From contig CAJNDT010003502.1 of NCBI GenBank assembly GCA_905221615.1, positions 434,001-498,000 on the forward strand: DNA of 64,000 nucleotides, read 5' to 3'. Below the pieces are notes generated by a model, which worked only from the letters and a program-made list of their open reading frames with translations, was not told the origin of the DNA and did not search any database. Source of the stretch: Symbiodinium sp. CCMP2592. Lineage: Eukaryota; Sar; Dinophyceae; Suessiales; Symbiodiniaceae. Below, in pieces: positions 20,422 through 59,031 of the stretch. Made by a program: the position numbers and the translations under genes. The stretch's first letter is position 1. The number at the start of each line of letters is the position of its first letter.

Positions 20422-20557
20422 CCCCAAGGGTCCAAGTACCTAATTCTCATATACTCTCCCTAAACCCTAAACCCTAAACCCTAAACCCTAAACCCTAAAC
20501 CCTAAACCCTAAACCCTAACCGAGTACCTAATTATTGGAACCTCTGGACCCTTAGGG
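20422..20557. repeat. Perfect telomere-type array inside an inverted-repeat element
   Basis: Eight full CCCTAAA units plus CCCTAA (20458-20518) lie between direct repeats AGTACCTAATT (20435-20445 and 20523-20533). Outside these are inverted repeats CCCCAAGGGTCC (20422-20433) and GGACCCTTAGGG (20546-20557). It is the longest perfect array seen in the window. Confidence 0.8.
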
Positions 20558-45437: not shown

Positions 45438-47653
45438 CTATCTTCCTCTCTTGCTCTGGTGTTTTTCTGAGAGTCCATGTGGCAGGTTTAGGCCCAGGGG
45501 TTTTGATTTTGCAGAAAAATATGTTTTTTTGGAGGGGTGCATAAAGAACGACTTGCCTAGATACAAGGTGCCGTTTCCTACCCTAAACCAAGACGAACCC
45601 GGAGATGCCCCAGATTATGCAGCCTCCCCTACACCCTCAACCCTAATTCTTAAACCCCTCTGAAGCCATAAGCCCAAGCCGAAATTAGCAAAAGCCGCCT
45701 GTAGAAGCGTTTAGGGTTCAAGGTTAAAGGTTTTGGAGGGTTTCGGGTGCAAGGTTTCGGGCTTTGGGTTCGGTCATTCTTGTAGTGGCTGCCATCCGGA
45801 CTTCTGTCTGCTCGGAGCATAAGGACACGACTAGGCTACCCGCTTCGGTTTTGGGGTTAAGGGCCCTGCAATGTACATTGCATGCACAAGCCGTGAACTG
45901 TCTTCCACGGCAGTTCTGAATGGTCCGGAAAATGTGAACCCCATTTTAACTGCTGAAATCCCAAGCCTAAACCCAAGTGCACAACTCATATATCACCAAA
46001 AGCTGCAGTCCGAAGGAGAACCCTGCGTAGCCTAAGTATATCGCATTTAACCACATGGACCCTTAGAGCCAAGGAGAAAGCCCAAGGACGCCAAACCAAA
46101 AACCCTAAGTCCTAAACTCGAAGCCTGAAACCCCTAGACCCTTAGACCACAGAACCCCTAAACCCCTAAACCCTTGCACTGAACTGTAAACTCCCTGAAC
46201 CCCTGAACCCTAAACCTGTAAATTCTAAACCCCCCAAAGCCCCTAAACCCCGACTCCAGATCCCTAAACCCCTAGACCCTAAACGGGGGGCCTATCCTAA
46301 ACCTTACACCCTAAACCCTAAACCTTATACAGCCTAAACCCTAAAGCCAAGAACCCAGGTAGAGCCCAACGGGGGCCTGATTCTTACACCCTAAACCTTA
46401 CACCCTAAACCCTAAACCCTAAACCCTAAACCTTACACCCTAAACCCTAAACCCTAAACCTTACACCCTAAACCCTAAACCCTAAAGCCAAGAAGTCGGA
46501 GCCCAGGGGCCTGATTCTCGAAGTTCTTCTTTGCCGGGCCCTCGGGCACGCGACCCAGCATTTGGACCTTCGTTCGGGGGGCTCGGGTTCTGGCTCTGCC
46601 CTGAGGGTTTAGGGTTTAGGGTACTGGGGTTTAGGGTACTGGGGTTTAGGGTTTAGGGTACTGGGGTTTAGGGTACTGGGGTTTTGGGGGCCATTATACC
46701 GTAATTTTGATGAGGAACTCCCCAAAATAGTATTCCCTAAGGGTCCATGTACTCATATAGAGATGCATGGGCCCCAATGTACCTATATAGGGACTACATG
46801 AAGGCCAATGTATATACTATATGAGTACATGGACCCTTAGGGATAAGCTCCATTGCAGCTCCTTTTTGGGACTACCTTATAGGTTCCTAAATACGAACCA
46901 CAAAAACGAACTACTATGGAGCCTCTAGGTAGGGAGCTTCCTCCAACCTGCTCCTTATACGGTTGAAGAAGCGTGGCTTGCCTTACATTACTCAGTTATA
47001 AGGAGTTGTGGTAAATTAAACTGCTTCCTTCTCATGGTAAACCGGTTCAAGATCGTACCCTAAGGGTCCAAGTACGTATATAGTACCTCAGAACATGGTA
47101 AGCTGGTTCAAGTTTAAACGCCATGTCCGTATCAAGAACCCAACCATCTCAGGGACGCACAGCCATCTTCAGCTGGGGCCATTTGGAGTAAACTGCATCC
47201 GGCTCAATGACGGCCTGGTTGAGGACCGTAAGCCCTATCCTCTAAGCCCTAAACCCCGAAGCCCTACAAGCCTACTTTAAATCCCAAACCCTGAATGCCG
47301 AATCCTATGTACAGAAAATGCTGAACGCTTGAATTGAAGCCTGCACAGAAAAGGGCTCGGATCTACAGAGCGGGGGTTCAAGTCCTGTTGCCACTAAAGA
47401 CATGCCCCAGCCCCTTAGCCGCTTACGGTCTTTGGAGATTTTAGCAGATTATACGGCTCTGTTGTTGGGACTAGGATTCAGGATTTTGCGGTTGAGGGTT
47501 TCAGAGTTTAGCATTTCTGGTTTTCAGCCTAGGGTTTGGGGATACGTCTTGGAGCTCCCTCTGACTTTTGTGTCACAGTGGCGGAGCGATATGCGCATCC
47601 TGGTCACAAGGCCATTCTTCGATTACAGATTTGTTACAAATCACGATCCTGGC
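42642..47653 (-). CDS. Unknown spliced gene directly downstream of fumarase (partial model)
   Basis: Chained minus exons: 47597-47653 (ARIVICNKSVIEEWPCDQD), 47161-47214 (AVIEPDAVYSKWPQLKMA), 46511-46567 (VQMLGRVPEGPAKKNFENQ), 44179-44217 (AVKDGFANQCQSK), and a terminal exon 42642-42760 ending SPGHTGKVYTLRVPRY and stop TAG. The first four are in phase with AG|G acceptors, and consecutive donors (GC, GT, GC) match the first bases of the next exon. A further open island at 45.33-45.39 kb (VLAAAKSLQALQIVMKGS) may belong. The link from 44179 to the terminal exon is out of phase as written, so an exon is missing. No family recognised. The 47.2 and 47.6 kb islands also read open on the plus strand. 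Confidence 0.45.
43190..43650. mobile_element. Family I element with a homopurine/G-run insert
   Basis: Arms AAAAGGAGGGACCCTTAATA (from 43198) and TTAAGGGTCCCTCCTTTTCC (to about 43646), with inner CCATATACCC/ATAGCCCATTATAGGG. Instead of a short loop they enclose about 330 bp (43262-43590) of poly-C/poly-G runs and AACAAG/GGAACCACA repeats. A short copy without the insert is at 9205-9325. Confidence 0.7.
44592..44704. mobile_element. Family G copy
   Basis: Complete arms as listed for 20891-20985; flanked by telomere-type repeats on both sides. Confidence 0.8.
44850..45032. mobile_element. Family A composite with left extension
   Basis: A family A hairpin (from about 44921) is preceded by about 70 bp of the type TTTAAGGGATCCATAAGGGT. 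The same extension is found at 1441-1597 and, inverted, at 8551-8646. Confidence 0.7.
45392..45434. repeat. (CT)n microsatellite
   Basis: About 20 CT units beside an exon-like island. Confidence 0.9.
46100..46490. repeat. CCCTAAA tract with higher-order unit
   Basis: From about 46380, units of the type CCTTACACCCTAAACCC followed by CTAAACCC recur at least three times. Confidence 0.8.
46735..46842. mobile_element. Family A copy fused to a family C half
   Basis: 108 bp. The left flank (46674-46734) is half of a family C element (GGGGGCCATTATACCGTAAT), apparently interrupted by it. A family E element follows at 46847. Confidence 0.8.
46847..46930. mobile_element. Family E-like short copy
   Basis: TAAGCTCCATTGCAGCTCCT and AACTACTATGGAGCCTCTAG arms. 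Similar copies at 42516-42610, 43719-43806 and 56840-56935, a subfamily with GGCTCC instead of GTCTCC. Confidence 0.7.
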
Positions 47654-48136: not shown

Positions 48137-51100
48137 TCACTTCTTGTACTCGGATGGCCCTATCATCTGATCAGGGCGGACCCATTTGTCGAAGTCCTCT
48201 CCGATGCGCTGTGATGCAAAGGGTCCATGTACATATAGTGTATATCTTAAGCCTTATAAGGGTTGTTACGTGCGTACTCTATGGCCAGAATATGTGCTAA
48301 ACGGGCACATTGCCGCATATGTAGGCCCTTAGGGCAATGCTTGTATGGTTGTTTTAAACGCACGTGAGAATAGGGCTGCTGGAAGGAATCCTACTATCTC
48401 GGGGCTCTGACATCTAGGATGCTCTCACTGTAGGGGGTCTTGGTCCCGGGCCCAAACCTGGTTGAAATAAGAGCTATTTCAGGGTTCAGGGCTGCTGTTA
48501 CACCCTGCAGCTGCAGACGGGTCCTACCGAGAATCGGACCAGCTCGCCAGCTAGGGCAAAACAAAATTGAAGTCTCAGGCACAAAGAGTTGTTTTAACGG
48601 CTATTTCTGGTCGTGACGATAAGTGTTGCCGAGGATGTAGGCACTTGGCCATAAAGGCCACCACATCCCTGAAAGTACAACCGTAAACCAGAGCTGTCGT
48701 ACAGAGTTCCCTCATGCGGTGCCACTAACCACAGTACGTCCCTGGAAGAGGACTTCAAACAAGGTGCAGGCCTTTCATCCATGCGCCACCTTGAAACCTT
48801 CAAGGGTCCCGAGCGTATGCCGAGAATCCGTTCTATGAACTCAAGACATCCCTCATCACTGCAGCCCATTCGCAACAAACTGCTTTCAACCCTGTCTGTC
48901 AGTTGTGAGTCGCGGCCCCTGAGCTCACAACCATGCACTCAACCCTCAACACATCTTTTAATAGTCCGAGTAGCTAGAAAACATGTGCGCGCCCAAATGT
49001 CAAATTAACCTGCATTACAACGACCCTGACACAAGTGCCTATTGGGTCCTGTAGCTGCTAGCGCCCCAAGCCCGGAAGCATTAACCCTATATCCTAAACC
49101 CCACATAAACTCTCAAACCTAAACCCTTATGAACCCTCAGCCTCAACGTTAAATCCTCGACTCTAAACCCGAGGCCCCTAAGCCTCAGCCCTCAACCATC
49201 CTAACCCTCATACCCTAAACCCTAAACCCCTAACCCTCATACCCTAAACCCCTCACCCTAAACCCTAAACCCCTAACCCTAAGGCCCTACACCCCCAAAC
49301 CCTAAACCCCTAACCCTAAGGCCCTAAACCCCTAAACGCTAAACCCCTAACCCCTCGGCCGTAAACCCGTCCTCGGAGCTGAGCAACTGCAGGGCCATGG
49401 CGGCCTCCTTCAGCGAGGTGCCCTCCTTGTGAGCCTCGCTGAGAGCTGTAACGCAGGGGGCCTTAAAAGAATAGAATACTTACAGGATCATGGGACTTAG
49501 TAACTTAGAGGGTTCCTTAAAGGATTCCTTAAAAGGATCTACAAGGGATCCTTGGGGGGGTGGGGGGGGGGGCGGGGGGTCAGGGTTCAAGGATCATGGG
49601 ACTTAATAAATAAAGTTTTTGCTCGGGTGACTATACTTATAGCCCCAATTAAGGTATTTATAACCTTACCTACTAAGTCCCATGATCCTCCAAGTAGGGT
49701 TCCTTTGTAGAGGGGACGATAAGGGTTACTATAAGAGATCTATAAGGGTACTATAAGGTAGGGGCCTTCATAACTAGAATAGAGTTTTGTACTCCTTTAT
49801 AGTAAAACTATAATAGGCAACCCCAAGAATATCATTGATGGTTATTTGACTTCTTGATTAGGGCTTTAGGGCTTCAGAGTTTAGGGTTTCGGTTAAGGGT
49901 TTAAGACTTAGGCTTTAAGGCTCTGAAGCTTCTTGTTAGGGCTTTCGGGCCTTAGGGGTCGGGGCTTTTTGAAGGGGTCTGGGGCTTTAGGCCTGAAGGT
50001 ATAATTTATGAGGTTTTCAGGCTTTGGGGGCTTGATTCCATAGGGTTTAGGGCTTCAGGCTTTAGGCTGTCAGGCTTTCGTTTTTGGTGCGTTGAGGCTT
50101 GAGAGCTTAAGCGTTCTAGTGTTTTGGGATGTTGGGGGTTAGGGGGTGTTAGCCAGGAGCTTTGGGGTAGCGTCTTTGGGTTTTGGGGTTGAGCACCTCT
50201 CGACATGGAGGGGTGGGGAGAAGTTTGCGAGCTTGTTGAGACCAAGGAAATATGTTAGGTCTTCCGGGTCTTTAGGGCTTGCCGGCTTGGGGAAAAACCC
50301 TTGGCAGAACACTAAGCGCTTTTGCCAATGGTTCAATGCTGTCGGCAGTGTAAATAAGAAACATCATCGATGTTCTTTTCATCGTGTGCTAAACAATAAA
50401 CCCTCTAGCCCCGAACACTCCACCCCAAAGATTCCATGTACCCTTTCAGTCTATGTTGCGCGCATATATAGTCTGTGGTACTGAGGTACCTATATAGGAC
50501 CCCCCCCCCCTTGCCGGCCTGAGTATAGTCTCTAAGAGGCACATGGACACGTAGAGTAGAGCATTTTAGAACACAAATTGCTTTGTTGTTTTAGGGTTCA
50601 GGGTTTACGAACTGTGCGTCTCTTGTCTGCTTTTCGTGATACCGTTCAGTCGCGTTCCAATTCAGAGCAGAAGATTAGCCCTGACCCCAAGCCCCAAAAC
50701 CCTACAAGCCCAACGACCCAAACCCTGGCTACTGTAGCAGCCTGAGCAATTAACAATATGTCCGCAGGGTTCTTCTTTAGTGTGTGTCAATTATAGTAGG
50801 TACTTAGTAGGTATTTGGGCCCCAAAACTATATACTGTACCATTACTGGGAAACTTTTTGCTATACTATACCCCAAAGCCGCGATTCTAATTGTTAACGC
50901 CCCCTAAAACCTGAACCCCAAACCCTGAACACTCAACCCTAAACCCCAATTTGTTCGATGCGGGCAAGGCCTTCTTGGCTGCTGCCGCTGCGTTGTCGTA
51001 GCCGATGTAAGGATTGAGAGCTGTCACCTGGAAGACCCAAAAACGTCAACCGGGGATTATAATCATATGCCTCGGACTATCGGGGGTCTTACGCAAGAGT

Positions 51101-54100
51101 GTCTATGACCTCTGAATCAAATTCCACCCGCCTAGTTTGTAGATTTTCGGCTCTCTGAGGACGGGATGCAGAAAATGCCTGCCAAGCTCATGGGGTTCGA
51201 CTACGAATCTCTGATCTGACCTATGCGCATGCAGCAACACCTCCACCAACCCAAAGTGTCCAAGCAATAGTACAGTATACAATTACTTTTGGGGCCCAAA
51301 TACCTACTAAGCACCTACTAGAATGCTACTACAGTAGGACCCTTTGGGCAAAAGTGCAACACTCCCGTCCTCCACCGGAACCTGTAGGCTTCCACAGTTA
51401 ACAGAACTCTAACGAAATCCGGTTAGTTACTGTAGATCCCCACTATATGGGAGTTTCCGAAAATAGGGGACCCTAATATAGTGCCCTCAATAGTAGGATC
51501 ATGAATATAAGGACCCCCAAGTAAGGTACCCCTAATTTTAGGAAACTCCCCTATGGCAACATAACATAGTTTTCTTAACAAGAACCCCGCAAACGCTGCA
51601 ACCAAGGCACAAGCATCAGGCTCTCGTTCATCAGCTTGGAGATGCCTCTGCTCATTAGGGAGGTGAACCACAAAAGCAGTCTAAGCCCTTAACGCACACC
51701 CTTCCCCTGAGGGTCCATGTACTCATATAGTATATACATTGGCCTTAATGTAGTCCCTATATAGGTACATTGGGGCCCATGTATCTCTATGTGGGCACAT
51801 GGACCCTTAGGGTTCAGCAAAATCATGAACCCCAACCCTACACCGCAACCCTAGACCCCAAAGCATGAATCCCATGAACCCTTCTTCGAATTCAGCTGCA
51901 GCATTGACCTCGGGCCGTCCGTAGGGCCATAGGGTTTCAGTTCGAGGTTCAGGTCAGGGGTTAGTTGGGCATCCTTGTTGAGATTTGTGTATGGTTTCGG
52001 GCCCCTAAACCCCACACCGTAGCACCCCCAGTCAGGGTCAGGGCAACGAGTGTTCAGTACATTGTTAACCACAAGGGTCCATGTGCCTTTAAAGGGTGCC
52101 TTTCGGGGTTCCTGAGGCCTCTAGAAGGGCTTCAGTGTTTGGCGTTTAAGGGCCCATGTGCCCAAACAATATATAATTTGGCCCTAAGTGGCCCTGCATA
52201 GGTACTTTGAGGCCACAGGATATAGTAATAGATTTGGGTAACCTATAAGCCCTAATACACCATAAACCCAAAACCCCGAAAACAGACGAGCTGCGATCGC
52301 GGTTGGGCTCAAGGCCCTCCATGCAGTTTTTGGAGAAGGAGGCAGCCTTACTGATTACTGTTCCAGCTACCCTTAACCCTAAACCAAAACCTCTAAGTCC
52401 TTGAGCCCCTAAAATCCTAAACCCCTAAGCCCCTAAACCCCCAAAATCCTAAACCCTTAACCCCCAAACCCCTGTTGGCCGAAGAGTCTGGGGGCAACCT
52501 GACATGCGGTTTGACAGTACTATACATGCAATACTAGAGCTTGCGGCTTAGGTCTTCCCCATAGTCTCCATTGTAGTTCCTGTTTGGGGTTACCTTTTAG
52601 GATCCTTCATATAAGGTCGGTTAAACCAACAAAAGGAACTACAATGGAGACTATAGGTAGAGTCTTAGAGGCTTGATCTGGCCTCAGAAAATATGTGGAT
52701 AATGTTCTCTACAGCCGAAGCTGGCCCGAACGCCCTTCTAAAGCAGAATGCCCGAAGCCTCGCAGTGGCAGTTGAGCCCTTACACCAGATCCATACCGCT
52801 GGAGCGTTTAGGGTTTTCCAGTAAGTCCATGGTCGAAGTAGCGGCGTCCCCGAGGATGTTGGCAGACTGCAGGAACGCGTTGATGATGCTGGGCTTGAAG
52901 ACGTTGAGCTCGAAGTGGCCGTTTGAGCCGCCGACCGTAATGGCAACATGATTCCTGAAGGTTCGGTTGATGATATAAATCCTGCATGACCCAACATAAG
53001 GAATATACCATAGTTTAGGGTCCTTAACGTAATGCAGGATTTATATCATCAACAGTTTCTCCAGATTGTTATAAGGCTTGTCGGGCACCTGAAGAGGTAG
53101 TTGCGATTCTACTGGAGAAGGCTCCGGGAAGGTATAGTTCTGAGGCGCTTAGTTTAAGCCATCCTCAGGACAGCATGCTCCTTACTATAGATACCCCGCA
53201 TATACGTACTCGAAAAAAGCTCCTTGGCAAGAGCCGTAAGGGCAGCATGCTCCTTACTATAGATGCCCTAAACCCTCGACCCAAAACCCCAAACCGCAAA
53301 CCCCAAACCCTAAACCCAAAGCCCAAAACCCTAAATCGCTTTCAAAAAAGCTCCTTAACAAGAGACCAGGAGTCCCCATGACCTGAGAACAGACCATGGT
53401 CAAGGCCTCGCACTGCGTGGGGTTCACTTTCCCTGGCATGATGGAAGAACCCGGCTCGTTCTCTGGGAGAAGCAGCTCACCCAAGCCACACCTTGCTTTG
53501 ATATATCTGTATATAAATAAAAATATAAGTATAAATATATATACATATATATATATATATACATACTGATATTGATAGGTGGATAGAGGGCTTAGCACGC
53601 TGGGCGTAGAGTGTCGGGTTTGGGGTCTCAGGGGTGGGGTAAATGTCGAGGCTCTCGGTCTTCATCGAAGGCTTGAGAATTCGGTTTACGGCTCGTACTG
53701 GGCTGGCCTTTTGGGCCTTGGGCAGTTGCACAGAGGCTATAACCCTAAGGGTCCATGTACTCATATAGTATATACATTGGCCTTAATGTAGTCCCTATAC
53801 AGGTACATCAGGGCCCATGTATCTCTATATGGGTACATGGACCCTTAGGGTAAGGGATTCCAGGAAACCCGGAACCGCAATCAGCAACACCAAAGCCCCT
53901 TTCCGAGAACTTCAAAACTAAGCAGTATGCAATGACTGAATCATCGAAGATCAGCCTACCACTGCTGCTGCTAGTCCTGCTCCTGTTCCTGCTCCTGCTC
54001 CTCCGCCTCCAAATCGTCTCCCCTCTTACTCTACCACAACCACTAGTACCGCCAATACCACCACCACCACCACCACCGCCATCACCACCATCACAACTTC

Positions 54101-57100
54101 ACGAACAGTGGCTTTCCTATTGGAAAATCCTACAGACTACACTCCAACCCTAAACCCTCACGCAGGAATAACTCAGAACAACGAAAAACAAATTGCCGTA
54201 CTAAAAGCCCATACTGTACCCGCGGCGTCAAAAAGCTCACATAACGCCCAAAGCCAGTGATTCAAGGCCCAAGTCACAAGAACCGATAGAAACGAGGTAT
54301 GATCATAATCGCCTTCATACATAGCCGGACCTATCCTACACCTTAACTCCTTAAACCTTGAACTCCGCAAGCCCAGTAGCCCCAAGCTACATACCAAATA
54401 CAGACACCCACCAGTGCTCAAGAACGGCCCTATACACACTCACCAAGTCCAAAGTGTAAGACCCTAAACCCTAAACCCAATTGAGGCAAGATACCTGGGA
54501 CCCGATCCCAAAAGTCGCACATCGTTGGCGATTTTCATCAGAGAGCACGCCACAGTGTTCAAAGCCCCAGATGCCTCTACCACGGCCTTGAAGATTGAAC
54601 ATGGCACTTTCAGAAACCCTAAGCCCAGGTCCCTGTTTAGGGATCAACATCTTGAGGATCCTAGCATTTCGGCTCCTTTAGCAGGCTATCTTCTTCGGGA
54701 ACTCTCAGATTTGTTCAGGGTTCCGTGGACCAAAGTGGCGTGCAGTAGGGCCTCGGGATGGTACCGCCCTGATGGGGTTAAGTTCACCATGTAGCGATGT
54801 GGAGTAGTGGTCCCAGACGGGAGCCTTGATACATAAGCCTGGATACCTAATTTGTATGTGGTTTCGGGGTATACTATGACATACTTGCACCGGAACAGAA
54901 AGGAGATGCTATTTTCAAAAGTAGTATATACTCACTATTCCGACGTCTACATTCACCAAATCCCGGGAGCTCAACTGCTGAGCGGCATCATGAGCAGCCA
55001 AGGCCTCGAACTTGTTGGGGGCCGACACGAACCTAAGTTGGCCCTTTGGAGCCTCTGAAAAATCTTCGCAAATACACGGTTAGGGTTTAGGGTTTAGGGT
55101 TTAGGGTCCTATTAAGAGCCCAATAAGGGAAAATATAAAATGTCCCAAAGGCCTAGGAACTCCTCACCGGTGATCCGGCCGACCTCCTCGGCAACACGCT
55201 CGGCAAAGCCAATGTAGGTGTTGAGGCCCGTGCCCACAGCCTAGGTGGGGCTTTTAAGGCCTTTGAAAAAATACTAGTAAATAAGATCCTCTTAAGCCCA
55301 ATAAGGGAAAATATAAAATGTCCCAAAGCCCTACCTAGCAGCAGTGCCACCCAGAGCAAGCTGGCGGAGGCGTGGCAAAGCGGACTCCACTCGAGCAATG
55401 CTGTACTCCACTTGCGTTGCATAGCCACTGAATTCCTGGCCCAAGGTCAGAGGTGTTGCGTCCTGAGTGTGGGTGCGTCCAATCTTGATGATGTCGTCAT
55501 ACTCCTTCGCTTGGCGCTCCAAAGTTTTATGCAGGCGGCGCAGTCCAGGCAGTGTGCGCTTCTGCAGTGCGAGCACCGCGGCAATGTGCATGGCTGTTGG
55601 AAAGGTGTCGTTGGACGATTGACTGCGGTTGACATGGTCGTTGGGATGCACCGGTGACTTGCTACCCAGCTCCCCGCCCAAAATCTCGATGGCACGGTTG
55701 CTGATAACTTCGTTGGTGTTCATGTTTGTCTGTGTACCACTTCCCGTCTGCCACACGACGAGAGGGAAATGGTCGTGCAGCTTGCCCGTGCGAACCTCGT
55801 CTGCAGCCTGGTGTCGTCTCCAACTCAAACTCTCGAATCAGTTTTGGGGTATACTTTACGTCTAAGCCTACAAAGGGACTACAAAGGAATCCTAAACCCT
55901 AAACCCTGAACCCTAAACCTATCGATAGTTAGCCCGACCCAAGAAAAGCACGAAGGAGTGCAAAGGCTGGAGATCGTCGGAGCCTTCATTCTAACCCCCA
56001 CATCGACAGTAATATCGGGGCCTTTTGCTTTCTGTTTTTAGAATATGTAGGGTTTCAGCGCCCATTATATATACTATATTTATTTTTCGGAATCCCCAAA
56101 AGAGTATAGGTCATTACTAAGGCCCCTGAAGTAGACCAGTAGAGCGGCTACAGCTGCGAGATCCATCCGATTGAGATTCGAATTTTGTTCGGCCCATCTT
56201 CCCAAAGAAAGGGCTTCTGCTAGGTTTAGCGTTCATCTTCCCAAAGCAAGGGGGTCTGTAAACCAGGATCCAACGGAGTACTACACTGCAGACCCAGGCT
56301 CCATGAAGACATCACCCATTCAATGGGATCCCGAACATAAGCCATCAAACACCAACAGTTGTCACGGCACACAACGTATCCCAACCCAAAGCCCAAACAC
56401 TAAGGGTCCATGTACTCATACAGTATATACATTGGCCTTAATGTAATTAGTCCCCATATAGGCACATTGGGGCCCATGTATCTCTATATGGGTACATGGA
56501 CCCTTAGGGAAACAGCCCATGAACCCTTGACCACGGCCCTGACCCAACGAAGCGCGAATCCTGAACTCGCAACTCGGTATCCCTAAACCCCTAAACCCTG
56601 TAAACCCCTAAACCTCTAAACCCTAAACCATAAACCCCGAAACCCTAAACCCCTAAACCCTGTAAACCCCTAAACCCCACACCCCAAACACCGAAACCCA
56701 GTCCTGGATGATAGCATCAGCAACATCGATTGGAAGCCCATAGTCTTTGTTGACCTCTACGTTGCGGAGGTTCATTAGGGTTTCAGGGTTAGGTAGGGTA
56801 TAAGGTTAGTTATAAAGGAGGTTCTTGGGTACCCAGAGGCTCCATGGTGGTTCCTTGTTGTAAAATCATATAAGAACTCGATAAGGTAATCCCGAAAAGG
56901 AACTACTATAGTTATAAGTAGCCCTAAAGGTTCAACTAGTCCTTATTCATGTGTTTTCATACCTAAACAGGCCCTGAGGTCCTATGATAAGGAGTGCTTG
57001 GACCCTCTGGGTAGGGCTGTAAGTCCGCTAATAAGGTTTGTAGGTATAATTATCCCCACTTAGAACTAAGTATGTGCGGAGGCTCTCCACGCGTGGTTTT

Positions 57101-59031
57101 TGGTCTAAAGTGCAAGGTGTTTGCTTAGGGCCTAGGCTTGAGGTTAGGGTCTTGGGTTAAGGGTTTCAATATCTATGCAGATGCAAGGTTCGTGGTTCGG
57201 GATTTGTAACTTTTACGGTTCGCGTTCGACTGACACGGAAGCCCCAAGTAGCCCTGATGCGACAAGACGGTGTAGTCAAAGACAGAACGTCAGGGCTTAC
57301 GGTCTACAGGGCTTCAACTTTAGGGATTCGGGTTTATGGCTTAGGGTTGCATATTTCGGCACCACACACTGAGATTCTGAAGAACCCCTAAACCCTAAAC
57401 CCGATACACTCCTAAACCTTACTCTCCTCTAAACCCTAAAACCTTAAACCCTACATTCCTAACCCTAAGGGTCCATGTACTCATATAGTATATACATTGG
57501 CCTTAATGTAGTCCCTATATAGGTACATTGGGGCCCATGTATCTCTATATGGGTACATGGACCCTTAGGGCCATGTAAAAGGGACCCTAATATAATACCC
57601 TAAATAGTAGGATCCTTATTATAAGGACCCCAATGTACCCTTAGGGTAAGACTTCTGACGCCTTAAGCGCGGGACCTGGGCAGCAGCCTGCTTGAGAGCA
57701 GCCATTGCCTCGATCACTTGTGGAGGCATCCTCCGCAATTTAGGGTTTGGGGCTTTGGGGTTTAGGGGCTTAGGATTTTTAGGGCTTAGGGTGTAGGGTT
57801 GCAGTGCAGTTTAGGGTTTGGGGCTTTGGGGTTTAGGGGTTTAGGATTTTGAGGGTTTAGTATTTAGGGTTTAGGGGTTTAGGGCCTTTAGGGGTTTAGG
57901 GCTTTCAGGGTTTAGGGTTTGGGGCTTCAACCAAAAAACAAACGTCTGCGCCGCAAACTCTAAACCCTGAACTCAAATGTGAAAAACCATCAGACCGAAA
58001 AGCTAACCCACCACCAAAAAACAAACACAAGACTTCGAAGGGTAATAAGGATCCTAAATACGATCTAGGATACTATATACTTATTATTTAGGATACTATA
58101 TACTATTTAGGATCCTTTATACTATCTAGGATCCTACATACTATCTAGGGTACTATATGTAGGGGTCCCCTGTTTTCGGAAACCGTCCTCTCGCGGTCTC
58201 CGCCGATTTCGAAGTTCTGGAGCGATCGCTGAGTTTGGGCACCCCAGTACTTCTCTGCTGGCACATCGATGTCGCCAAAGGTGTCTTTCTCTCTTCGCAC
58301 CTCCGTTTCGAGTTTAGAAATAGTTCGAGGTTCCTTCGAATTCAGAAATATTTCGGGCTTCTCTCTCCTCACGTTCGCCAGAATCCTACATACGAGAAGG
58401 TTACATGCTGTCCAGACCAACCCCTACTATGCAAGTGTAGAATGGTACCTGATAATATTCTTCTGCAAGCAACCTTCGTTTGCTGATGGTCGGTATATGT
58501 CAGAAAGCGTCCCTTCGTATTGATACACGGACAGCATCCCCTCAGGCCATAAGGATCCAGTGAATCGTACTGCTTGCTGTCGCCAACTCCCCAATAGCCC
58601 CAAAGATAGGCGTAGGATAATGTAAACTTTTTCCTTATATAAGCTCGGGTCTCGATTCTGAGCCCGTTGCATTGCTAACGTTGCATGAGCCATCACCAGT
58701 GCGCAGCAGGACAAGGCTTCATCAAGGAATCTACCTCTATTTTCCGACTACCACTCGCAAGCCGCCAACGGTGGTGCAAACACCTTCCGTGGTGTTGGTG
58801 CTTTTTCAAGGATTGCTCTGAAAGTGTGTTTCTGTGCTTGTTTAACGGTTGTTCTCGTTTTTTGAACGAACTTCAGACACAGGCACGGCCTTAAATGTAA
58901 CTCGAATTCCTTGGTCCGGCCTTCGGAGTGCCAGAGCTAAACCCAGCGGTCGGAAATACGCGAAGCCCTGGGCAAAGCACAGCTGCGGGAGGCAAGCCCC
59001 GAAAGGCCAAACGGCGTCCACCAGACAACAT
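48137..59031 (-). CDS. FH: Mitochondrial class II fumarate hydratase (fumarase), 16 exons
   Basis: Fumarase hydrates fumarate to L-malate in the TCA cycle. Exons, 5' to 3' on the minus strand: 58910-59031, 58373-58385, 58188-58300, 57676-57730, 56704-56754, 55343-55807, 55161-55240, 54987-55032, 54495-54586, 53375-53491, 52843-52954, 52295-52346, 51611-51645, 50971-51027, 49372-49434, 48137-48196. They sum to 1533 nt: 510 codons plus TGA, in frame throughout, a usual mitochondrial fumarase length. Motifs seen: [66 protein letters not shown], the signature loop [17 protein letters not shown] (exon 10), [15 protein letters not shown], and C-terminal [18 protein letters not shown]. The start ATG (59031) opens an Arg-rich, acid-poor leader ([20 protein letters not shown]) typical of a mitochondrial presequence. 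No catalytic motif is missing. Exons 3-16 are fixed by family alignment. Exons 1-2 and intron 2 are less certain, because that region is not conserved and intron 2 (72 nt) is also open. Confidence 0.93.
48594..48938 (-). other. 345-nt open frame inside fumarase intron 15
   Basis: Sense-strand open frame containing [20 protein letters not shown]. It lies between the last two fumarase exons, where the family needs no extra residues. It lacks the usual repeats. It could be a cassette exon, a nested gene fragment or chance. Confidence 0.25.
49195..49350. repeat. CCCTAAA/AACCCCTAACC tract in fumarase intron 15
   Basis: Mixed CCCTAAACCCC and CCCTCATACC units; one inner segment (CCCTAAACCCCTAACCCTAA plus GGCCCTA) is tandemly duplicated. 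Confidence 0.75.
49480..49695. mobile_element. Family D, two nested or tandem copies with a G-run (fumarase intron 14)
   Basis: One left arm (ACAGGATCATGGGACTTAGT) at 49492 is followed by a G-rich run (49552-49580) and a second left arm at 49592. A single right arm (GTCCCATGATCCTCCAAGTA) ends the element near 49695. Confidence 0.65.
51449..51550. mobile_element. Family B element, reference copy (fumarase intron 13)
   Basis: About 102 bp, ends GGGAGTTTCCGAAAATAGGG and ATTTTAGGAAACTCCC. Inner arms GTAGGATC and ATAAGGACCCCC. MITE-like hairpin. Confidence 0.8.
51705..51812. mobile_element. Family A copy in fumarase intron 12
   Basis: 108 bp, with a mismatch in the left arm (CCCTGAGGG). Confidence 0.85.
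52557..52662. mobile_element. Family E element, reference copy (fumarase intron 11)
   Basis: CATAGTCTCCATTGTAGTTCC and its inverse GGAACTACAATGGAGACTAT bound about 105 bp; the centre holds a GGATCC palindrome. Confidence 0.8.
52965..53053. mobile_element. Family H element (fumarase intron 10)
   Basis: GTTGATGATATAAATCCTGC and GCAGGATTTATATCATCAAC arms, 10 bp from the intron acceptor. A second copy is at 27488-27581 and a third is cut by the window start (about 1-86). Confidence 0.8.
53170..53362. repeat. Direct duplication in fumarase intron 10
   Basis: CAGCATGCTCCTTACTATAG occurs at 53172 and 53248, and AAAAAAGCTCCTT(G/A)(G/A)CAAGAG at 53214 and 53344. The second copy is split by a CCCTAAA/CCCCAAAC insertion (53268-53335). 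Confidence 0.75.
53743..53850. mobile_element. Family A element (108 bp), reference copy
   Basis: Terminal inverted repeat CCCTAAGGGTCCATGTAC at both ends. The inner arms ATACATTGGCCTTAATGTAG and AGGTACATCAGGGCCCATGT continue the fold, so almost the whole element can form one hairpin. In fumarase intron 9. No coding capacity; MITE-like. Confidence 0.85.
55033..55160 (-). mobile_element. Fumarase intron 7: 128-bp introner-like element with telomere-like insert (GT-AG)
   Basis: It starts GTTC CTAGG CCTTTGGGACATTTT and continues with the same body as intron 6. It ends GGCCAACTTAG before GTTCGTG, so GTTC is duplicated at both junctions. Just over three telomere-type units (TTTAGGG on the plus strand, 55080-55108) lie in its middle. 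Confidence 0.75.
55241..55342 (-). mobile_element. Fumarase intron 6: 102-bp introner-like element (GC-AG)
   Basis: The intron is the element. Its 5' end reads GCTG then CTAGGTAGGGCTTT. Its 3' end is AAAAGCCCCACCTAG, the inverse of CTAGGTGGGGCTTTT. The terminal CTAG supplies the acceptor AG, and the 4-nt GCTG at the intron start recurs at the start of the next exon, as a target duplication would. The body (TTTGGGACATTTTATATT, then TTTTCCCTTATTGGGC) is shared almost unchanged with intron 7. Confidence 0.8.
55343..55807 (-). other. Fumarase exon 6: 155-codon core exon
   Basis: This is the only long fumarase exon. It runs from QAADEV (CAG|GCTGCA junction) to LALGGT and holds the [14 protein letters not shown] and [11 protein letters not shown] active-site segments. 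Its donor is GC (ACT|GCTGCTAGG). Confidence 0.95.
56013..56127. mobile_element. Family C copy in fumarase intron 5
   Basis: CGGGGCCTTTTGCTTTCTG and ATTACTAAGGCCCCTG; centre TATATATACTATATTTAT. Confidence 0.65.
56400..56509. mobile_element. Family A copy in fumarase intron 5
   Basis: Intact arms; the centre has a 4-bp ATTA insertion (GTAATTAGTCCCC) relative to other copies. Confidence 0.85.
57463..57570. mobile_element. Family A copy in fumarase intron 4, with adjacent family B fragment
   Basis: A 108-bp copy nearly identical to 53743-53850. It is followed at 57577-57640 by half a family B element (GGGACCCTAATATAATACCC ... AAGGACCCC), then by another CCCTTAGGG, so a B fragment sits inside a second A arm. 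Confidence 0.85.
57731..58187 (-). mobile_element. Fumarase intron 3 with family B end at the donor
   Basis: GA-AG intron. Four bases after the exon it reads GTTTCCGAAAACAGGGGACC, the family B terminal repeat. It continues as a run of related units (TAGGATCCTA-type, 58020-58165). The acceptor side is a TTTAGGG/TTTGGGG-rich tract (57735-57930, plus strand) containing a direct duplication of about 80 bp. Confidence 0.65.
58373..58385 (-). other. Fumarase exon 2: candidate 13-nt microexon
   Basis: The sequence G ATT CTG GCG AAC lies between an acceptor TAG|G and a donor GTGAGG. It keeps phase between exon 1 (ends with two codon bases) and exon 3 (starts in frame). The alternative is that the 72-nt intron 2 is not removed, which would add 24 codons (VRREKPEIF and onwards) and make one larger exon 58188-58385. 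Confidence 0.5.
58910..59031 (-). other. Fumarase exon 1: start codon and mitochondrial presequence
   Basis: The exon runs from ATG to CCA AG, followed by a GA donor (GAATTCG). It encodes about 40 residues rich in Arg, Gly, Ala and Leu, with no Asp or Glu, and ends near [11 protein letters not shown]; a cleaved presequence is likely. A TAG sits 8 nt upstream of the ATG (CATTGTAG then TTGACGCC). It could serve as a spliced-leader trans-splice acceptor, since dinoflagellate mRNAs receive a spliced leader; that is inference. Confidence 0.6.

Follow-up and report, generated by a model that had tools for sequence, protein, structure and literature searches.

How do two introns lying only 80 nt apart in a gene for a conserved enzyme come to share sequence? 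The question arises at a fumarase gene within the 64,000-nt stretch analysed here (the window), which belongs to contig C3502 of a Symbiodinium assembly. A preliminary description of this DNA took the two introns for copies of a single element and gave intron gain from a MITE-like element as the simplest reading. The lengths it reported (102 and 128 nt), the intervening exon and the 4-bp duplications GCTG and GTTC all stand. Its numbering does not: counting the exons we recognise, the pair would be the fourth and fifth of at least 13 introns, and we retain 6 and 7 as labels. The sequence common to the two introns exceeds what had been described, comprising an uninterrupted 33-mer inside a longer, slightly imperfect repeat; the 33-mer occurs twice in the window and in none of 100 shuffles.

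The identity of the host gene is clear. Searching with E. coli FumC by tblastn located 13 exons, two of them weakly (E 0.8 and E 3.1), and a further exon was placed by eye (Table 1). The joined central exons match Pfam Lyase_1 at 3.2e-67 and PDB fumarases at E ~1e-96. Once both introns are taken out, 202 fumarase residues can be aligned with solved fumarases, and the three alignments examined are free of gaps. At intron 6, a GC-AG boundary restores the fumarase alignment, while moving the donor 3 nt onward would insert an extra alanine; at intron 7, a GT-AG boundary can be read straight from the sequence. The predicted spliced junctions are GGCACT^GCTGTGGGC for intron 6 and GAGGA^GTTCGTG for intron 7.

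Table 1. Features of the fumarase locus and repeats of the window (positions in the window; slashes mark intron positions)
Feature	Position	Strand	Basis
Fumarase gene, class II, FumC type, 14 exons recognised	48158..58300	-	tblastn and by eye
Intron 6 (number of the preliminary description), 102 nt, GC-AG, upstream GCTG copy plus 98-bp element	55241..55342	-	Ungapped fumarase across GGTA/VGTG once removed
Subfamily A element, 98 bp, terminal inverted repeats CTAGGTAGGGCTTT / CTAGGTGGGGCTTT	55241..55338	-	95/97 aligned sites as in A consensus; A at 9/9 diagnostic sites
Intron 6 upstream target-site copy GCTG; GC is the proposed 5' splice site	55339..55342	-	
Intron 6 downstream target-site copy GCTG, opening the next exon (AG/G)	55237..55240	-	
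80-nt fumarase exon separating the two insertions	55161..55240	-	
Intron 7 (number of the preliminary description), 128 nt, GT-AG, upstream GTTC copy plus 124-bp element	55033..55160	-	Ungapped fumarase across GEEF/VSAP once removed
Subfamily B element, 124 bp, with telomere-like insertion and 4-bp deletion near left end	55033..55156	-	B at 9/9 diagnostic sites; 87/93 aligned sites as in B consensus
Telomere-like tract within intron 7 element (exact repeat from scan)	55081..55101	-	
Intron 7 upstream target-site copy GTTC; GT is the proposed 5' splice site	55157..55160	-	
Intron 7 downstream target-site copy GTTC, opening the next exon	55029..55032	-	
MITE-like family of ~110 bp, approximate starts	4150, 8446, 31914, 32165, 35910, 44923, 46735, 51705, 53743, 56400, 57463		
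Repeat family of ~105 bp, seven copies, approximate starts	4685, 23350, 27308, 39456, 40266, 42083, 51448		
Telomere-like tracts, examples	20458-20513, 46403-46486, 55081-55101		

Both introns have the anatomy of an inserted element. The element of intron 6 starts with CTAGGTAGGGCTTT and finishes with AAAGCCCCACCTAG, and the second GCTG follows directly. That of intron 7 starts with CTAGGCC and finishes with GGGCCAACTTAG, followed directly by the second GTTC. The inverted repeats of intron 6 had been described as reaching both splice sites, which holds for the acceptor, provided by the terminal CTAG, but not for the donor, whose GC sits in the duplication outside the repeat. Beyond what had been noticed, intron 7 has terminal repeats too, in degenerate form; its CCCTAAA repeats start at the element's own CCCTA, and the missing 4 bp lie near its left end. 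In RNA folding, a hairpin joining the two ends was supported for intron 6 (z -2.25) but not for intron 7 (z 0.54).

We searched the assembly (1,098,105,373 bases in 5383 contigs) for further copies. As a marker of dinoflagellate origin we used the dinoflagellate spliced-leader 21-mer; it has 429 exact occurrences in the genome, and its reversed control has 0, which marks the host as a dinoflagellate. A 391-base query returned 2184 first-look candidates, 40 of which were scored; the 39 besides the window's own were 94-98% identical over ~97 bp, and eight additional matches were short, seven of them covering the telomere-like part alone. A 34-base core of the element has 419 exact genome copies (control 0) and was not found in viral and prokaryote collections. 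Perfect flanking duplications of 4 or 5 bp accompany 36 of 41 near-full copies, those in fumarase included. The top matches to the 391-base query were nevertheless left out of our target-site statistics, because that query carried flanking exon letters and so favoured GCTG-like duplications. We instead used a sample independent of the flanks, namely the first 100 listed of the 419 exact-core places, counted as 99 since two of them (L121 and L122) share an identical context. In this sample, the element ends are flanked by an exact 4-bp duplication in 76/99 copies, compared with 21/1961 mismatched flank pairs. A slightly looser rule, accepting 4 or 5 bp, finds duplications in 78/99 copies, the element being 97 bp long in 64 of the 78. 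The family's ends are fixed (CTAGGTAGG..CCTAG). Terminal inverted repeats, a target duplication of fixed length, short size and high copy number identify it as a MITE. It also resembles an introner in that similarity runs to both intron boundaries, exactly at the two fumarase introns and in frame at 5/6 other loci with a coding-scoring left flank.

With the family, its duplications and the exact restoration of the fumarase alignment all in support, we are highly confident that both fumarase introns arose by MITE insertion, as the introner reading holds. The inserted unit would have been a non-autonomous DNA transposon of small size, a ~97-bp MITE whose terminal inverted repeats are CTAG-ended, and its entry into a fumarase exon would have duplicated 4 bp of target. 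The 5' splice site would then come from the upstream copy of the duplication and the 3' splice site from the terminal TAG of the element, such that excising the element with one target copy would restore the reading frame exactly. To judge from the open frame recovered at each junction, introns 6 and 7 are presumably spliced in the cell. Movement of the element was probably powered by a transposase acting in trans, and the change at fumarase was presumably a gain, and a recent one.

The two elements belong to different branches of the family. The 99 aligned copies fall into subfamily A (82 copies) and subfamily B (17 copies), which nine diagnostic columns tell apart. At 9/9 of these sites, intron 6 carries the A state and intron 7 the B state; they are therefore separate insertions, and neither intron was copied onto its neighbour. 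Contrary to the preliminary description, they are not copies of each other, and the local conversion that it had named as a challenge to its own reading becomes unlikely. We note that the sense strand of the A consensus contains TACTAAT ~32 nt before its end. This resembles the yeast branch-point motif and is a candidate only.

The spacing of only 80 nt and a common stretch of 39 nt at 97% identity could instead suggest that the element landed in two pre-existing introns, or that local duplication or conversion copied one intron onto its neighbour. We regard this as very unlikely. At both fumarase introns the exon ends coincide exactly with the 4-bp duplications, and removing the element plus one duplication leaves no remainder of an older intron. 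Local copying between introns 6 and 7 was rejected given the subfamily split. Under the preferred reading, the two fumarase insertions would be independent events drawn from the two subfamilies.

If insertion creates introns, the duplicated bases should matter where the surrounding sequence is coding. We scored the joined flanks of each copy in the element's sense direction with a codon model built from fumarase exons only, with the threshold set so that 5% of random window positions pass. "Coding-like" below refers to this score rather than to annotation, and copies within existing introns fall outside the measure. Among the 78 copies with a duplication, 10 have coding-like flanks, where ~4 are expected by chance; the flanks of the remaining 68 are not coding-like. 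The duplication starts with GT, GC or GA in 9/10 coding-like copies versus 11/68 others (Fisher p 7.9e-6), and the same comparison on the reverse strand was not significant (p 0.25). An earlier codon model, partly trained on the tested loci, gave 8/10 versus 12/68. The one coding-like copy whose duplication is not donor-like (L009) has TTTG.

Comparing duplications of equal G/C content gave a mixed picture. With two G/C letters, the median score was +3.4 for donor-like duplications (n=8) versus -19.6 for others (n=8), and with three it was -3.5 (n=5) versus -20.2 (n=1). With one G/C letter, contrary to expectation, the donor-like median of -24.4 (n=6) fell below that of the others (-16.6, n=26). 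We also asked whether the reading frame is kept across the element, taking from 129 copies those whose left flank alone scores coding and whose right flank is not negative. The same frame was preferred on the left and right in 5/6 sense cases (p 0.018) and in 0/2 reverse cases; the sole sense exception was L045, with duplication CCTG. A test based on open-frame length did not discriminate, as long frames occur at random positions too. Donor-like duplications are thus linked to coding-like flanks in small numbers of copies, a pattern that fits a filter acting on the 5' splice site.

The same counts bear on how the element spreads. Excision and insertion points coincide in the coding copies, as they would if the element moved as an intron, by reverse splicing of its excised RNA followed by reverse transcription, a reading given for fungal introners (PMC9860276). 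The terminal inverted repeats and 4-bp duplications point instead to DNA transposition, as do the 58/78 duplications that are unusable as GT, GC or GA donors (for example TTTA and ATAA); reverse splicing therefore seems to us exceedingly improbable.

A further concern is that the fumarase locus might be a pseudogene or an assembly product, its insertions being unspliced MITEs that break the gene. Read through, intron 6 does contain stops, and splicing at this locus is a deduction of ours. Against this, the fumarase exons as recognised are open and conserved, and donor-like duplications go with coding-like flanks across the genome. Moreover, the 202-residue query has only one other match in the genome, and that match is a distant, bacterial-looking gene. 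We consider a broken or artefactual locus highly improbable. The match in question (L145, C5051:1384356-1384958) is a second fumarase frame, 503 residues long and intronless, that represents either gene transfer or contamination. At 52% identity and with a bacterial look, in our judgement, it was rejected as an intron-free control for the fumarase gene.

We then considered copies of the element elsewhere. The preliminary description had proposed searching the genome for copies that begin and end at splice sites of unrelated genes. The element does recur throughout the genome, its ends constant and flanked by 4-bp duplications, and some copies lie in frame within coding-like sequence of other genes. 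Most sampled copies are without coding-like flanks, however, which makes this a general MITE family in which a minority of members appear to act as introns. Pfam searches of ten joined proteins placed the fumarase and an ankyrin protein above the cut-off and an S1 domain just below it, and gave no credible match for the remaining seven; neither the ankyrin nor the S1 stretch spans its element junction.

One locus, in a gene unrelated to fumarase, offers a site for comparison. The joined protein of L043 (duplication GCTA), searched against its own genome, has 11 other matches that span the insertion residue free of stops. One of these, L148 on contig C41, is 44% identical and runs gap-free across residue 150, the L043 insertion point, where MLASSYC/YHHRGEEYG aligns with MLAAGYCYHNRGDDF (the slash marking the insertion). 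Insertion after gene duplication is the simpler reading, because the L043 element shares ~95% identity with the fumarase copy, the similarity between the paralogues being far lower. L148 thus shows the site without the element, in keeping with an intron created by insertion, although so distant a paralogue could be a retroposed or intron-loss copy. Separately, L042 (C335:535105-542744) carries three copies within ~2.3 kb in a single orientation, two of them near-full and the third diverged (78%); the duplications of the full copies, GCTG and GTGA, are donor-like. It is possibly another gene with several introners.

Other repeats are common in the window. A second MITE-like family of ~110 bp, nearly palindromic and ending in CCCTAAGGGTCCATGTAC, has at least 11 copies there, four of them between fumarase exons, and a ~105-bp family is also present (Table 1). 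Telomere-like tracts (TTTAGGG/CCCTAAA, at least 2 units) number 43 in the 64 kb, with 0 in 20 single-base shuffles. The right ends of two sampled element copies, L080 and L101, run into CCCTAAACCC. The telomere-like repeats in these copies and in the intron 7 element could mark repair at broken elements. In a scan of the fumarase gene, further introns fit GT/GC/GA..AG/G with direct boundary repeats of ~3-6 bp. This is a hint only, from a scan run without a chance control in which exon ends were mis-set at its introns 3 and 5 and ambiguous at 12, and part of the repetition is expected from the AG/G consensus.

How do these elements compare with known introners? The DNA-transposon introners of Micromonas and Aureococcus (Huff et al. 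2016) reportedly create introns by MITE-like insertion, with one splice site coming from the duplication. The fumarase elements are alike in MITE-like intron creation and differ in host, a comparison made at the level of mechanism. An identical architecture has been reported from Symbiodinium microadriaticum. The introners of that species, as presented in the Fig. 2B legend of Gozashti et al. 2022 (PMC9860276), share the dinoflagellate host, 4-bp target duplications and terminal inverted repeats; there too, according to parts of that paper, the element carries the 3' splice site and the duplication gives the 5' splice site. On architecture alone, the two may be the same family. A passage of the same paper reports introners enriched in genes in 161/175 genomes, whereas 68/78 of the duplication-bearing copies here lie outside coding-like flanks, a measure of flank score and not of gene location overall.

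The introners of Amoebophrya A25 and A120 (Farhat et al. 2021, PMC7789003) are alike, in the sections describing them, in having inverted repeats at intron ends, direct repeats of 3-5 nt over the exon-intron boundary and hairpin potential, which intron 6 shares by folding end to end. Their splice sites are described as highly variable, and an inverted repeat specific to a family was not found there, whereas the fumarase elements have the ends of one fixed family (CTAGG..CCTAG) and inferred boundaries of GC-AG and GT-AG. The recently active dinoflagellate introner families of Roy et al. 2023, which created many introns according to the summary in PMC11453091, are alike in kind, as judged by description and not by sequence. 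Part of that review also puts GC/GA-AG boundaries at 25-74% in Symbiodiniaceae, and introner elements are reported for Suessiales and Prorocentrum in PMC10522408 and PMC10666404. The route by which these introns were made is already known, and the fumarase elements are a clear case of it, not a new kind of system.

The new points are evidence from the subfamilies that a conserved enzyme was hit twice, independently, 80 nt apart, a comparison of target duplications inside one genome, and a single paralogous site that lacks the element. More tentatively, and with less than even confidence, we suggest that this is an ordinary genome-wide MITE and not an introner that seeks out genes. The four duplicated bases would then decide whether a copy becomes an intron, the acceptance of GT, GC and GA donors by dinoflagellates would widen the range of spliceable 4-mers, and many dinoflagellate introns with short boundary repeats, other fumarase introns included, may be relics of such insertions. 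An element family with intact ends and target duplications, the fumarase pair drawn from its two subfamilies and the element-free paralogous site together provide a clean worked example of intron birth, and the contrast between coding-like and other copies makes a selective filter on the duplicated 4-mer measurable inside a single genome.
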